NCBI GenBank assembly: GCA_904395845.1
Contig: CAJFOH010000077.1
Span: forward strand, 1 to 32,605
Reading direction: 5' to 3'
Length of the DNA: 32,605 nt
Source: an uncultured Lachnospiraceae bacterium
GTDB lineage: Bacteria > Bacillota > Clostridia > Lachnospirales > Lachnospiraceae
In this document: in pieces, positions 4,102 through 13,091 of the stretch
How the letters are laid out: every line of letters begins with the position of its first letter
How positions within the stretch are numbered: the stretch's first letter is position 1
Notes under the pieces: model-generated
What the model was told of the DNA's origin: nothing
Databases searched by the model: none
What the model saw: only the letters and a program-made list of their open reading frames with translations
Program-made: the position numbers and the translations under genes

Positions 4102-4839
4102 CTAATCTTCATAGGAAATTCTAAAATAATCAAGATAAGCCTTATATCTATCTTGTGCCGAAAGGCAAGTATCTGTTAAATAGCCTCTTTCTCTATCCCA
4201 TTCTTTTAATCCACGATAATAGAACATTTTTAAATTATCTTCTATAAGAAAAGGCACAATATGATTTCTTAAACATTCCTTAAACATAATTAGCCTTCCC
4301 ACCCTACCATTTCCATCTTGAAACGGATGTATTCGCTCAAAATTAACGTGAAATTCTAAGATATCCTGAAAAGTTTTTTCCTCTATTTGATTATATTCTA
4401 ATAGCAACTTTCTCATAGCTATCTCAACATTTTCTGGCATTACTGCTTGCATTCCACCAACTTCATTTGGCATTTTTTTATAATCCCCTACTGCAAACCA
4501 CTCATTTCTAGAATCACTAGTTCCTGACTTCAAAATATAATGGAGCTTTTTTATAAATTGTTCTGATAATGGTAAATGGGCTTCCTCAATAACTATGTCA
4601 ATGCATCGAAAATGGTTTGATGTTTCAATAATATCATCCACATTAACTGCTTGATTTTCTACACCTATTGTATTGGTTTCAAAAATATATCTTGTCTGCT
4701 CATGTGTTAAACAACTACCCTCCATATGATTTGAGTTAAATGTAAAATCAATTTGTGTTTTATGATAAATCCCACCAGAATATTTTCTTTTTTTCTCTTC
4801 TTTTAAAACTTCTAATAATGAATTTCTCTTGAACTCCAT
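4102..4839 (-). CDS. Fic family protein (predicted AMPylase) with N-terminal inhibitory motif
   Basis: 245-aa ORF; Fic motif HPFQDGNGRVGR and N-terminal SNHMEG matching the (S/T)xxxE(G/N) inhibitory helix. Confidence 0.93.
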   Translation of the reverse strand: MEFKRNSLLEVLKEEKKRKYSGGIYHKTQIDFTFNSNHMEGSCLTHEQTRYIFETNTIGVENQAVNVDDIIETSNHFRCIDIVIEEAHLPLSEQFIKKLHYILKSGTSDSRNEWFAVGDYKKMPNEVGGMQAVMPENVEIAMRKLLLEYNQIEEKTFQDILEFHVNFERIHPFQDGNGRVGRLIMFKECLRNHIVPFLIEDNLKMFYYRGLKEWDRERGYLTDTCLSAQDRYKAYLDYFRISYED

Positions 4840-7569: not shown

Positions 7570-10383
7570 TTACTCCATCCAATCTGGTTTATCCAATGGT
7601 TTTGTCCATATGATTTTTATGGCATCTATTTTCATTCCACTTTGAGCAAAATACAAGCGAATATAATTATGAGGTGAGAAAATTACACCTAAATTCTGCT
7701 CTATTTCTATCCACTCTTCATTGGTGCCATTTATAGTAATGGTTCCTAATAATGTTCCATTTAAAAAGATTGATACTGGAATCTGTGCTACCTCTCCTGC
7801 ATCTGCCTTTACTTTCATGCACAACTTATATTCTCCAGGCTTTAAAATTTCAAGACCATATAAAACAGAGTTTCCTTTTTCTGTACATAGTTCTTCTCCT
7901 GACAGAATAATTTCTCCATCCACCTGATGATAAATTAAATCAAAATCAACCTTTTCCTCTTCTTTTATAGATTCATAAGCTTCCTTTTCTTCTTTGCTAA
8001 TTCGTCCTAACTGTCTTTCCATAACAGGAGAATGAAGAAGCATATTTAAAATATTTATTGCACATCTTTGAAGAGCTCCACGGGTTAAGCTACCATTTTC
8101 TAAGTCATCTAGTAAATTTCCCTTAAGCTTCTCTGTATCAGGAACTACCATAAAAACATCATTTTGTGCTTTCACCATAGCTGTGTAATTATATACTGAT
8201 GGCAATCCACCTTCATCATTTATGTCTGCCCACCAGTCTGTCATAACCATTCCATCAAATCCCCATTCTTTTCTTAGGATTGTTGTAACTAAATCATAAT
8301 TTCCAGCAGTCCATACTCCATTTACTGCTCCATAGGTTGTCATAACAGATTTTGCATTTCCTTCTTTTACTGCAATTTCAAATCCCTTTAAATAAATTTC
8401 TCTAAGCGCTCGTTCCGATACAATAGAATTATACTTTCGACGATTATGTTCTTGATTATTTGCTGCAAAATGCTTTATGGTAGAATGAATACCATATTTT
8501 TTCATTCCTCTAAGCTGAGCAGATGCTATTTTTCCTGTTACAAGAGGATCTTCAGAAAAATATTCAAAATTTCTTCCATTCAAAGGATTCCTATGAATAT
8601 TCATTCCCGGTCCTAATAAGGTATCTACTCGATTTTTACGAAGCTCGGCTCCAACCATTTCAAATAAATCCTCTAATAAGGTTTCATTAAAGGTAGAGGC
8701 TAAACAAACACCATTTGGCAAGCTAAATGCCTTTGTCCCACAATCCATACGAATCCCTGATGGACCATCTGCACAACAGCCACATGGAATACCTAATTCC
8801 TTTAACTCTTCTGTTAGCCCTCCAAATGCTGCCGCAGTTCCCGGTGTTACCTTAGGAGAACACATACCTTCCCCCTTAACAATGCAACACAAACCTTGAT
8901 CTGAAATCTGTGCAACAAAGGTATTCAAGTCAATTTTTCCATCATATACATCTGAAAGAAAATATCCCTTATTTCCAGTATATGATATTTCATTTATTTT
9001 ATCGTTCTCTATATGTGATTTCATAGAAGAAATTTTTATTGGAGCATTTTCCAATAAGGCTTCTACACCCCCTTCTTTTTCCTCTAATACATTTGGTCTT
9101 AATCTTGAAAATACCTTTTCTGGTGCAGCTACCTGTGTACATTCTTCTACTACAATTAACTCTTTAATGTCAAATCCACCTACAGATATTGCGTTTCTAA
9201 CATCTGTTCCAATATAAAATTCATAATATCCTGGCTCTAATACATAACAAAATGGATGTCCTGTCTTTCCTTCATCATCATAAGATGCAAGCTGTGAATC
9301 TGTTATAAGAAAATCTATTTGTTCACTTTCTCCCGTACTTAATAGTTTTGTTTTCTTAAATGCAACAAGACTTCTAAGTGGCTTTCCTAATTTGCCTTGA
9401 GGTGCTTTTAAATAAACCTGTACCACTTCCTTACCAGACACCTGACCTGTATTTACTACACTTACCTGTAAATGACTCCTACAACACTTTAAATCCTCTA
9501 ATTCTTCTCTTTTTACCTGAGGTTGCTGCAAATGAAAAGAAGTATATGATAGTCCATAACCAAAAGGATACATTACCTTTTCTTTTTCAAATGTTTCAAA
9601 ATATCGATATCCTACATAAATATCCTCTTCATACTCATTATATTGCTCTCCACCAAAATTTTTAGTAGATGGATAATCATGAATATCATAAGCAATAGTA
9701 TCTGTTAGTTTTCCACAAGGATTGACTCTTCCCATAAGAACATCTACTACACCATTGCCACCTTCCTGTCCTCCTTGCCATACATACATTACAGCGGAAG
9801 GCTTATATTTTTCTACCCATTTCATATCAATAATACTACCAACATTTAAAAGAACCACTGTTTTAGAAAAGGCACTACACACCTTCTCTAGCATATCCTC
9901 TTCAATAGATGTAAGCAAATAGCTTCCCTTTTCTATTCGGATATCTCTATCTTCCCCTGCAGTCCTTCCAATAACCACAATAGCTGTATCTGACTCTTTT
10001 GCTGCCTGACAAACCAATTCATCGGTCAACGGCATTTCCTCTTGACTCCATGGTTCCTGCGCCCAGCCCTTCCCTTGATCAAAGGGATGCTCTTTTATCC
10101 AATCTTGATAAATTTTATCTAGCTCTTGATTCAAATGGAGATTTTCTTTTACTAATGCATCTAAAATCCCAACGGTATATCTTGTATTCACCAAACCTCC
10201 AGATCCTGTACCACTTTTATAATAATTAAACTGGATTCTTCCAAAAACAGAAATTTTCTCTCCTTCTCTCAGTGGAAGGGTATTATTTTCATTTCTAAGA
10301 AGTACCACCCCTTCTGCTGCTGCTTGTCTTGCTAATACAGTATATTTTTCCCAATCCATTATATAACGATTTGTCATCCTCAT
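7570..10383 (-). CDS. glycoside hydrolase family 3 protein with inverted domain order
   Basis: 937-aa ORF; GH3 C-domain and Fn3-like segment at the N-terminus (AAAEGVVLLRNENNTLPL, YPFGYGLSYTSF), then the TIM-barrel domain (GPGMNIHRNPLNGRNFEYFSEDP, KHFAANNQEHNRR, VMTDWWAD), then a CBM6-like tail. Confidence 0.92.
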   Translation of the reverse strand: MRMTNRYIMDWEKYTVLARQAAAEGVVLLRNENNTLPLREGEKISVFGRIQFNYYKSGTGSGGLVNTRYTVGILDALVKENLHLNQELDKIYQDWIKEHPFDQGKGWAQEPWSQEEMPLTDELVCQAAKESDTAIVVIGRTAGEDRDIRIEKGSYLLTSIEEDMLEKVCSAFSKTVVLLNVGSIIDMKWVEKYKPSAVMYVWQGGQEGGNGVVDVLMGRVNPCGKLTDTIAYDIHDYPSTKNFGGEQYNEYEEDIYVGYRYFETFEKEKVMYPFGYGLSYTSFHLQQPQVKREELEDLKCCRSHLQVSVVNTGQVSGKEVVQVYLKAPQGKLGKPLRSLVAFKKTKLLSTGESEQIDFLITDSQLASYDDEGKTGHPFCYVLEPGYYEFYIGTDVRNAISVGGFDIKELIVVEECTQVAAPEKVFSRLRPNVLEEKEGGVEALLENAPIKISSMKSHIENDKINEISYTGNKGYFLSDVYDGKIDLNTFVAQISDQGLCCIVKGEGMCSPKVTPGTAAAFGGLTEELKELGIPCGCCADGPSGIRMDCGTKAFSLPNGVCLASTFNETLLEDLFEMVGAELRKNRVDTLLGPGMNIHRNPLNGRNFEYFSEDPLVTGKIASAQLRGMKKYGIHSTIKHFAANNQEHNRRKYNSIVSERALREIYLKGFEIAVKEGNAKSVMTTYGAVNGVWTAGNYDLVTTILRKEWGFDGMVMTDWWADINDEGGLPSVYNYTAMVKAQNDVFMVVPDTEKLKGNLLDDLENGSLTRGALQRCAINILNMLLHSPVMERQLGRISKEEKEAYESIKEEEKVDFDLIYHQVDGEIILSGEELCTEKGNSVLYGLEILKPGEYKLCMKVKADAGEVAQIPVSIFLNGTLLGTITINGTNEEWIEIEQNLGVIFSPHNYIRLYFAQSGMKIDAIKIIWTKPLDKPDWME

Positions 10384-10581
10384 TCTTCCTTTCCATACAC
10401 TACAGTCATCGCTTCTATTTTCTACGACTTTAGCCTACCATTTATTTCTATGAATTCATTATAATCAATAAAAGTATGTATGAAAAGTAATTATTTTACA
10501 ATTAGGTTTTTATTTTTTATTTAAATTTGGTTTCCTTCCACTTCTTGCCCAATCATTGTCAACGTGCTTTGCAAGGGAATT

Positions 10582-10633
10582 AAAAAAGTGACTGTGGCAT
10601 CTACGATCCCTTAAGCGTTGATTCCACAGCCCC
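10582..10633 (-). terminator. terminator-like hairpin downstream of the TOPRIM-like gene
   Basis: Minus strand ggggctgtggaatcaacg-cttaagggat-cgtagatgccacagtcac then TTTTTT; 18-nt arms, imperfectly complementary. Confidence 0.6.
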
Positions 10634-10737
10634 TTCATTTGTTTATATAACCTAAAATTCCAATAACTTTGCAAAACCCAATAGTTTTATCTAAAATCAA
10701 ATAGTACATAGAATCGTCTTTACTCTTAACTGCCTTA

Positions 10738-11427
10738 TTATTTCACTTTGGGTTCAAAAATCAAATGCATATTAGTATGTCTATTTAAAGAGTTAGTATC
10801 TTTCTCAATAAAATTCCAAGTTTCCTGATAAGTACCAGCTACTGCCACATTTACACCTGATATAAATTCGATAAACTCATCTACTCTTCCATCATATCTA
10901 TCAGCAAACTCATCAGACAATTCCCTTTTTTCATCGTCAGTAAGGGATGTTAACTCATTATACAACACATGTTCTAAATTACAAGAATTATAGTAAATTC
11001 TATAAGGTATTCCTCTTACTTTTCCTTCTTTTCTTAACTTGGATAAGATTAATCGCTTCCGTTGATTACGATCTACAATCCCTTTTACATTTTTAGTTTC
11101 AATAAAACATGTACCATATTGAACCTTTTCTACATTTGCTTCTTTTACATTCTCATCTGGTATAAATACACCATCTGTATCAACAATGTGTATGATTTTT
11201 ATAAAATCACTGCCACAATAGCGATATTTCTTTTTAATCTCATTAATTGTATCACTTATCTTGACTTTTATTTTATCTATTGTAACATAATCTTTTAGTG
11301 TAATATCCCCATGTACAACAACAAACTGTACCTCATGATTGGAAAAGTATTCTTTCATAATTGATCCAAGTGCAGTTTCATCACTTGGACCTTCCACAAT
11401 AAATGCAATAACCTTCTTTTCCTTCAT
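10738..11427 (-). CDS. TOPRIM-like protein partnered with upstream AAA ATPase
   Basis: ORF track gives 10738..11460, but MKEKKVIAFIVEGPSDETAL starting at 11427 is a more natural N-terminus and sits 1 nt after the ATPase stop. FIVEG...E and IIHIVDTDG (DxD) fit a TOPRIM/OLD-like nuclease core. Confidence 0.7.
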   Translation of the reverse strand: MKEKKVIAFIVEGPSDETALGSIMKEYFSNHEVQFVVVHGDITLKDYVTIDKIKVKISDTINEIKKKYRYCGSDFIKIIHIVDTDGVFIPDENVKEANVEKVQYGTCFIETKNVKGIVDRNQRKRLILSKLRKEGKVRGIPYRIYYNSCNLEHVLYNELTSLTDDEKRELSDEFADRYDGRVDEFIEFISGVNVAVAGTYQETWNFIEKDTNSLNRHTNMHLIFEPKVK

Positions 11428-11428
11428 T

Positions 11429-12811
11429 TTATATTCTTCGACCTGCCTTTCTAAATGCACGTGCCATTTTTAAACTATCTGTTGCTTCATAAATCACCTC
11501 ATCTTGACCTCCAAGGGTAATTCCTCTAAGATACGTATCCCTAAGATTATTGGTTGCCTTTACATGCTTCATTCTTATATATCTTCTATTAGGATTTGCT
11601 GTAGAAAACATAATGCTATCTTTATCTAACATTTCTAATGCTCGAAGATTATGAGAAGTAAAAATCAACTGACCTTTTGCACTCTTATGAAAAATATCAA
11701 GTAACTCCCCTAACATATACTCAAAAATTCCTGCATCTAACTCATCAATAGCTAAACATATGGATGGGTTACCAAAGGCTTGAATTAAAATATTTAGTAT
11801 GGAAATAATTTTTATAATCCCCTCCGACTCCATTCGAATTGGAATTGGTGGCATATTTCCTCGAATAGAAACAAGTTCTACTCTATAACCATTCTCTCCA
11901 GAGTCTAGTAGCTGCTGTCCATAATTTCGGACCTCTATCTTCATTTCTGGAATAATAGTACATAATACAATATTAATATGTTCTACAATAATCTGAAGTA
12001 AATCTTTTTCTTCTTCTTTCAAAACAACTGGCTCTGTTAATGAAACAGTCAAATCTCCTCTCATTCCAATTTGATTATGTTCTATTTTAAAAGCCATAGG
12101 AAGTACGAAATTGGCAGAAATCACTCCAGAATGCGTATTGCGTATTACAAATAAATTTTTTAAAGCAAAATGAAATAATGCCTCTATTACTTGAGAATAA
12201 TCTTTAAAATTATTGTCATAATTGCGAAGAAAAATTTCTCTACTACTTTCTCCAAAGATATAAGAACAATTACTTTTTTCTGCCATTCTTTTTGCTACGA
12301 TTAAATCGGTTCTATTCTCTTGATTTCCTTCAATGACTTCCTCAAGCCTTTTTTTAGGCATAAATATACGTTCCTTTTCCTTACGGTTATAGTCCATAAA
12401 TACTGTTTTATTACTTCTTGAAGCACCTGTATTAATAGCACAACTTAAAGTTTCCTGAATAATCTCTACACCCTTATTATTCTTTTGCAAATCAATCCTA
12501 TAAGTCACTTCATATATATTGTTATCTTCAAAAATATTAAAGTCTGCAACAATCCTTGCTTGATTATCATTTACATCAATATAATCCGCCATTTCCTCAT
12601 TAAGTGTACTTCCTATCATAATTTTCTGTAAAAAGTATAACGTATCAATTACTGCCGTTTTTCCTGAACCATTTTGCCCATATACACCAAGTATTTCTGC
12701 ATTGTTATATGACATATTTTTTTTATAGGTATTTGGCATAATAATTTTTCCATTTTTAACATTTTTTATATTTGAAAGTTCCAGTGAAGCTAATCTTACA
12801 ATACCATCCAT
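11429..12811 (-). CDS. AAA family ATPase (AAA_15/AAA_21, ABC/SMC-like)
   Basis: 460-aa ORF; Walker A GVYGQNGSGKTAVIDTLYF, Walker B SICLAIDELDAGIFEYML, switch-like IFTSHNLRALEML. Confidence 0.92.
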   Translation of the reverse strand: MDGIVRLASLELSNIKNVKNGKIIMPNTYKKNMSYNNAEILGVYGQNGSGKTAVIDTLYFLQKIMIGSTLNEEMADYIDVNDNQARIVADFNIFEDNNIYEVTYRIDLQKNNKGVEIIQETLSCAINTGASRSNKTVFMDYNRKEKERIFMPKKRLEEVIEGNQENRTDLIVAKRMAEKSNCSYIFGESSREIFLRNYDNNFKDYSQVIEALFHFALKNLFVIRNTHSGVISANFVLPMAFKIEHNQIGMRGDLTVSLTEPVVLKEEEKDLLQIIVEHINIVLCTIIPEMKIEVRNYGQQLLDSGENGYRVELVSIRGNMPPIPIRMESEGIIKIISILNILIQAFGNPSICLAIDELDAGIFEYMLGELLDIFHKSAKGQLIFTSHNLRALEMLDKDSIMFSTANPNRRYIRMKHVKATNNLRDTYLRGITLGGQDEVIYEATDSLKMARAFRKAGRRI

Positions 12812-13091
12812 AATATATCCTCCATTTTATTTATATTAACATAATTAATTTTTTAATTCAATATTTTCATTTCTATATTTTTTATTTCATTTTTCAAAAA
12901 ACAATTTTAATAAACCCTTATGAAATACAAATATTTATCTGTATTTATTCCCTTTCTTTTTTAAGAATATACATTTTTACTACTATATTGATTAAACATA
13001 CTCTTTATCCCATTTACTTATCCTATACAAAAAAAGAGACAAAACCATCTCTGATTTCATCTCTTTTCTCTTTAAAACAGCTTGTTTTGTT

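Follow-up and report, generated by a model that had tools for sequence, protein, structure and literature searches.

An ATPase gene and a small TOPRIM-like gene lie next to gyrA

The window (the whole 32,605-nt stretch of DNA analysed here) carries, in minus-strand order, dnaA, dnaN, recF, gyrB, gyrA, an ATPase gene, a small TOPRIM-like gene and a GH3 gene. The replication genes were named by reading the open reading frames and their order, gyrA was checked against relatives and the GH3 gene was identified with Pfam. The original prediction of a two-gene unit, in which an ATPase is followed 1 nt later by a small TOPRIM-like protein, held up: both open reading frames are present at the positions given in Table 1, and the motifs GQNGSGKT and CLAIDELDAG (with D356 and E357) were found in the first protein and FIVEGPSDE and IIHIVDTDG in the second. 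The ATPase gene starts with an ATG 7 nt downstream of GGAGG. The small protein starts MKEKK from an ATG one base past the ATPase stop codon; the ORF caller offered a GTG at 11460 as an alternative start, which would make the gene overlap that of the ATPase. The predicted terminator-like hairpin 3′ of the pair is present with its U run, but it folds only mildly better than shuffled sequences and is not listed by a consensus terminator scanner. Because this hairpin follows the pair and a strong gyrA terminator lies upstream of it, the ATPase and small genes read as their own transcription unit between gyrA and the GH3 gene. The GC content of the pair (0.30-0.31) equals that of its surroundings (0.312).

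Table 1. Features of the two-gene cassette and its borders in the window.
Feature	Position	Strand	Description	Evidence
ATPase gene	11429..12811	-	ABC/OLD-type, 460 aa; proposed role in sensing and in restraining the nuclease	ORF, Pfam, PADLOC, AF2, Foldseek
Small TOPRIM-like gene	10738..11427	-	229 aa; proposed nuclease effector	ORF, AF2, profile match to RloB
Shine-Dalgarno GGAGG	12819..12823	-	Of the ATPase gene	Sequence
Walker A GQNGSGKT	12656..12679	-	Residues 45-52 of the ATPase	Conservation in 30 ATPases
E12	11392..11394	-	Predicted catalytic glutamate, TOPRIM core IVEG	Invariant in 103/103; aligned to RloB EG and GyrB IVEG
D83-T-D85	11173..11181	-	Predicted metal-binding DxD	D83 and D85 invariant in 103/103; aligned to RloB DxD
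SLNRHTN	10771..10791	-	C-terminal family signature, residues 213-219	S213, R216 and N219 invariant in 103/103
Hairpin and U run	10584..10636	-	Probable intrinsic terminator 3′ of the pair	Fold -21.3 kcal/mol, z -1.75
gyrA terminator hairpin	13029..13070	-	Separates gyrA from the cassette	Fold -21.1 kcal/mol, z -4.2

Two further genes of the window drew attention in their own right. The GH3 protein (7570-10383, minus strand) has a reversed domain order in Pfam, with Glyco_hydro_3_C (26-280) and an Fn3-like domain preceding the Glyco_hydro_3 N-terminal domain (526-779), and a Fic/DOC family protein (4102-4839, minus strand) is possibly another toxin-like gene.

The ATPase resembles AbiLi and falls in a separate clade

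AAA_21 was the sole Pfam family above cut-off in the ATPase (6.1e-11), and in PADLOC the protein scored 102 bits on the AbiLi model. AbiLi is matched by all 30 ATPases of the family survey and gives the best E-value; AriA is the second-best model, with a weaker match of 1.3e-12. The motifs of an ABC-type ATPase are intact, with the Walker A motif, G331, D356-E357, D359 and H387 invariant in the 30 ATPases; within Walker A, G45-Q46-N47-G48 and G50-K51-T52 are strictly invariant and S49 nearly so. The AF2 model (pLDDT 80.6) matched Rad50, SMC and PtuA folds in Foldseek, with E-values from about 1e-9 to 3e-12. Aligned with hhalign, the profile of the cassette ATPases matched AbiLi at 99% and 1.4e-19. 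True AbiLi proteins, encoded in Lachnospiraceae RloB operons, reach 265-312 bits with the AbiLi model versus the 102 bits of the window ATPase. In a tree of 58 ATPases, a single branch with a support of 100 separates the cassette ATPases from the true AbiLi proteins; two long-branch rows and L135, an apparent intruder read in the wrong frame, were removed from this tree. By sequence, the cassette ATPase is thus nearest to AbiLi, yet in a clade of its own.

The small protein is very probably a TOPRIM-type nuclease

None of the Pfam, NCBIfam, PADLOC or PHROG models reached its cut-off with the small protein, and its homologues on plasmids appear in RefSeq as 'hypothetical protein' beside an 'AAA family ATPase' or 'ATP-binding protein'. 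Below threshold, its Pfam matches cover one and the same N-terminal core and point to the TOPRIM-type families Toprim and OLD-like TOPRIM as well as to DUF4276. Across 103 distinct homologues E12, G13, D41, D83, D85, Y104, K124, N150, H153, K167, W204, S213, R216 and N219 are invariant, and since E12, G13, D83 and D85 are identical in every one of them, the TOPRIM-like motifs are not a product of chance. AF2 returned a confident alpha/beta model (pLDDT 88.4) in which strand 6-11 ends just before E12 and strand 75-83 runs into the DxD. The arrangement is TOPRIM-like: a conserved glutamate after strand 1 and a DxD after a later strand of the alpha/beta core are both found where the fold has them, so that structure prediction spoke for the proposed TOPRIM fold and not against it.

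In a profile comparison with 26 RloB proteins, EG aligned on EG and DxD on DxD (P 2e-4, score 34.5; maxima of 19.8 and 21.1 in 20 and 30 column shuffles and of 17 in gyrA controls), and the GyrB TOPRIM aligned with the small protein at IVEG. The second Foldseek match in the viral library was an RloB-like phage protein (probability 0.93, E 0.0045) with the best TM-score among the top matches; in the PDB library a PARIS complex chain, 8ux9_A, stood tenth (E 0.05) and topoisomerase II reached E 0.13. We take 8ux9_A (306 aa) to be AriB of PARIS. The two kinds of comparison proposed for the small protein therefore differed in outcome, with the profile match to RloB standing and all Foldseek matches staying above E 0.001 in both libraries (TOPRIM matches at E 0.0045 to 0.13). 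Taking sequence and model together, we regard the small protein as very probably a TOPRIM-type nuclease; the assignment of the fold is probable rather than proven and draws on motif conservation and the RloB profile match. Class 2 OLD enzymes build a two-metal site from a glutamate, a DxD, an acid four residues after the glutamate and a lysine (PMC6755086). Most members of the small-protein family likewise have an acid four residues past E12, and we would guess by analogy that K124 corresponds to the lysine.

The family carries the signatures IVEG-PSD, DTDG, YxSxNLxH and SLxRxxN. The last of these lies in the C-terminal tail, which had at first been left unassigned and turns out to be a real family signature. 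Some small proteins bear extra C-terminal tails of ~30-45 aa past SLxRxxN (L014 139-288, L017 2182-2268). PDB sequence matches to calmodulin, chorismate mutase and elongation factor P were at chance level and were discarded.

The two genes are strictly paired and co-diverge

In the family survey the ATPase gene directly precedes the small gene, in the same order, at each of the 30 loci. The genome and virus collections supplied another 85 loci, and 84 of these show the same arrangement, 83 of them clean and one with a broken but adjacent ATPase (L108); the locus without an ATPase (L114) is a fragment of 4.6 kb. The genes overlap or lie 1 nt apart in most loci, with an overlap of 8 or 11 nt in the majority of pairs, which suggests coupled translation. 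The ATPase distances follow those of the small proteins closely (Mantel r 0.95, p 1e-4). No conserved third gene accompanies the pair, as the 285 flanking proteins fell into 229 clusters, the commonest of which reflect related strains. The small protein is almost certainly the working partner of the ATPase.

At eight loci of close relatives (L034 5666-6457 and seven others), the first or second gene upstream of the pair encodes a 263-aa protein without a Pfam or PADLOC match, which is absent from the window. Among broken loci, the nuclease was affected in six and the ATPase in two, near-duplicates included, too few to claim preferential loss of the nuclease.

The pair is a patchy, mobile accessory element

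Homologues of the small protein were found in 44 of 397 Lachnospiraceae genomes, in one of eight congeneric species and in 8 of 399 genomes of the phylum. Searching genome contigs yielded 358 related stretches, mostly from Lachnospiraceae among the 80 listed, and virus contigs held five loci with small-protein homologues. The original prediction had named universal conservation of the pair at gyrA as an outcome that would count against it; the pair proved patchy instead, with seven of the eight congeners without it. As the nearest relatives (66-69% identity) belong to other genera while congeners are without the pair, horizontal transfer would fit its distribution.

The proposal that the pair is inserted beside gyrA survives only in part. 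The pair does adjoin gyrA in the window, but this is local to the one genome: not one of the 85 loci taken from genome and virus collections has gyrA close to the pair, gene order downstream of gyrA varies in congeners, and neither an exact empty site nor a common right-hand flank was found among 15 relatives. In the stretches equivalent to 10384-13091 (L178-L192) the sequence downstream of gyrA varies among relatives, several leading to tRNA-Ser(GCT) and one to a 16S rRNA start. The contigs of several relatives end near tRNA-Ser or 16S.

Plasmids of Firmicutes and a phage carry the pair as well. It sits near a tyrosine recombinase on Ruminococcus albus pRUMAL01, among or next to transfer genes on Lysinibacillus pFN9A, and on Paenibacillus pY5S7-1; in the 132-kb Clostridioides phage pCD1602_4 it has a virion structural gene on one side and a series of anti-repressors on the other. 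Most copies occupy genome contigs, in varied places. The pair is thus accessory and mobile as well as patchy. An association with defence islands, also raised by the original prediction, came out weak, few immediate neighbours matching defence models: in a raw count, these were a handful of the 91 neighbouring proteins (single matches to JetD, ThsB or PDC-M03), most of the 91 being housekeeping proteins.

Some plasmids hold decayed or diverged versions. On Paenibacillus pART37 the ATPase is intact and the TOPRIM gene (L206 5296-5948) has decayed, with stops and loss of the EG motif. One Cetobacterium plasmid pairs a diverged ATPase with a 241-aa partner that has EGPSDE and DTD and is without the SLxRxxN tail, and on a Cetobacterium somerae plasmid (L208 398-5749) a distant ATPase with no recognisable TOPRIM partner has cas13c, MNT/HepT genes and a recombinase as neighbours. 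The 627-kb plasmid of [Eubacterium] eligens bears an orphan ATPase (L205 3989-5389) with an IS256 transposase upstream; no TOPRIM remnant was found downstream.

The cassette resembles AbiL and PARIS and has a different putative effector

Comparison with AbiL and PARIS proved apt, the ATPase being nearest to AbiLi and then to AriA, and the small protein nearest to RloB/AbiLii by profile and structure. AbiL, the abortive-infection system of Lactococcus plasmids (AbiLi with AbiLii/RloB, PF13707), has the same build of two genes, ATPase first and a TOPRIM-type protein second. PARIS (AriA with AriB, DUF4435) shares the split OLD architecture. It differs in that none of the small-protein members matched PF14491 (DUF4435), and the small protein is shorter than the PARIS chain found by Foldseek. 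OLD, Gabija GajA and retron OLD nucleases likewise combine an ABC ATPase with a TOPRIM nuclease (EG, DxD), but in the cassette the domains are on two genes with no helicase or reverse transcriptase partner, the window neighbours being gyrA and GH3 and those elsewhere not conserved. Gabija, cited in the original prediction, is therefore not a close parallel, being one fused protein plus a helicase.

Among the NetFlax AAA(D29):TOPRIM_OLD pairs, which also consist of an AAA ATPase and a TOPRIM toxin on two genes, the D44 toxin of C. algidicarnis is RloB, unlike the small protein of the cassette (PMC10440598); the D60 pair of S. agalactiae 2603V/R could be of the same family as the cassette. The PADLOC candidates HEC-01, PDC-M07, PDC-M12 and MADS mad3/mad4 have related ATPases and a few sub-threshold matches to small proteins, but they are weaker than AbiLi for the ATPase, and of 28 small proteins they match 4 at most, with E-values of 7e-4 or worse. 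No paper describing the pair was found in a literature search that took in few subscription journals.

These comparisons bear on whether the cassette might simply be AbiL, an AbiLi with a diverged AbiLii (RloB) that goes unnamed because the models are narrow. The gene order, the AbiLi match of every ATPase and the standing of RloB as best profile relative of the small protein would all agree with this. We nevertheless consider it unlikely, given that the ATPases reach about one third of the true AbiLi score and split from those proteins with full support. On the partner side, PF13707 and the AbiLii model matched none of 28 small proteins even at E 0.1, and the RloB proteins are without the Y-x-S-x-N-L-x-H and S-L-x-R-x-x-N signatures. 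Filing the cassette under AbiL or PARIS was accordingly rejected, as the partner models of neither recognise it. The best reading by analogy is that the cassette would work like AbiL and PARIS with its own family of TOPRIM effectors.

Slightly less probable still is a module that serves only as a toxin-antitoxin pair or for plasmid/phage maintenance, in which the ATPase would neutralise a TOPRIM toxin for addiction without phage sensing. Neutralisation of TOPRIM toxins by AAA ATPases has been seen in published assays (PMC10440598), and plasmids and a phage do carry the pair; against this, most copies are on genome contigs, intact orphan ATPases exist, and a neutraliser needs less than 460 aa and a full set of catalytic motifs. 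Such a module would, moreover, be compatible with defence and not exclusive of it. A housekeeping pair for DNA or RNA processing or repair, tied to the replication genes, is very improbable. The resemblance of the ATPase to RecF, SMC and Rad50 folds and its position close to gyrA, gyrB, recF, dnaN and dnaA in the window invite the idea, but the pair is missing from ~89% of family genomes as well as from most congeners. This patchy distribution largely refutes a housekeeping link to gyrA, against which the varied locations elsewhere and the want of a conserved third gene also speak.

A sensor-restrained nuclease is the preferred model

We therefore favour the reading of the cassette as a mobile two-gene abortive-infection module, a split OLD system like AbiL and PARIS, and judge it likely to be correct; phage defence as its function appears likewise probable by analogy. 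Bolder is the proposal that split ATPase-TOPRIM immune systems come in a third kind beside AbiL and PARIS, represented by the cassette, with an undescribed TOPRIM nuclease family as effector and with an RNA or DNA target and a phage trigger of its own; here we see the balance as even. If so, about one in ten sampled Lachnospiraceae species and a C. difficile phage would carry it. Bacterial immunity makes repeated use of ATPase-TOPRIM pairs, with target and trigger known for only a minority of them. The unnamed pair is widespread in gut Lachnospiraceae, and current defence finders would miss it or file it loosely as AbiLi.

In PARIS, a hexamer of the AriA ATPase holds AriB, and when a phage protein is sensed AriB is released and cuts tRNA-Lys (PMC12409363). 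In tests of two NetFlax pairs, those of D44 and D60, AAA ATPases neutralised their toxic TOPRIM partners (PMC10440598). Some OLD-family enzymes are not defensive, as in the case of the archaeal Cran1 (PMC12796447). By analogy with AriA/AriB and the AAA:TOPRIM pairs, we infer complex formation, nuclease activity, target, trigger and defence for the cassette and propose a nuclease restrained by a sensor. The ATPase would act as an ABC-type machine that probably oligomerises and holds the small TOPRIM nuclease inactive while sensing a change caused by phage; on this trigger, the TOPRIM protein would be released or activated. It would then use two metal ions at E12/D83/D85, probably aided by the acid at position 16 and K124, to cut host nucleic acid. 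The most likely substrate would be tRNA, as for AriB, although we put this forward tentatively and with somewhat less than even confidence. Cleavage would stop translation and, with it, phage growth. The invariant residues offer ready point mutants, which makes target and trigger directly testable. Since the ATPase tail (residues 416-443) is predicted by AF2 with low confidence and yet is conserved above average (0.68 vs 0.54), it would fit a role as a partner-binding element.
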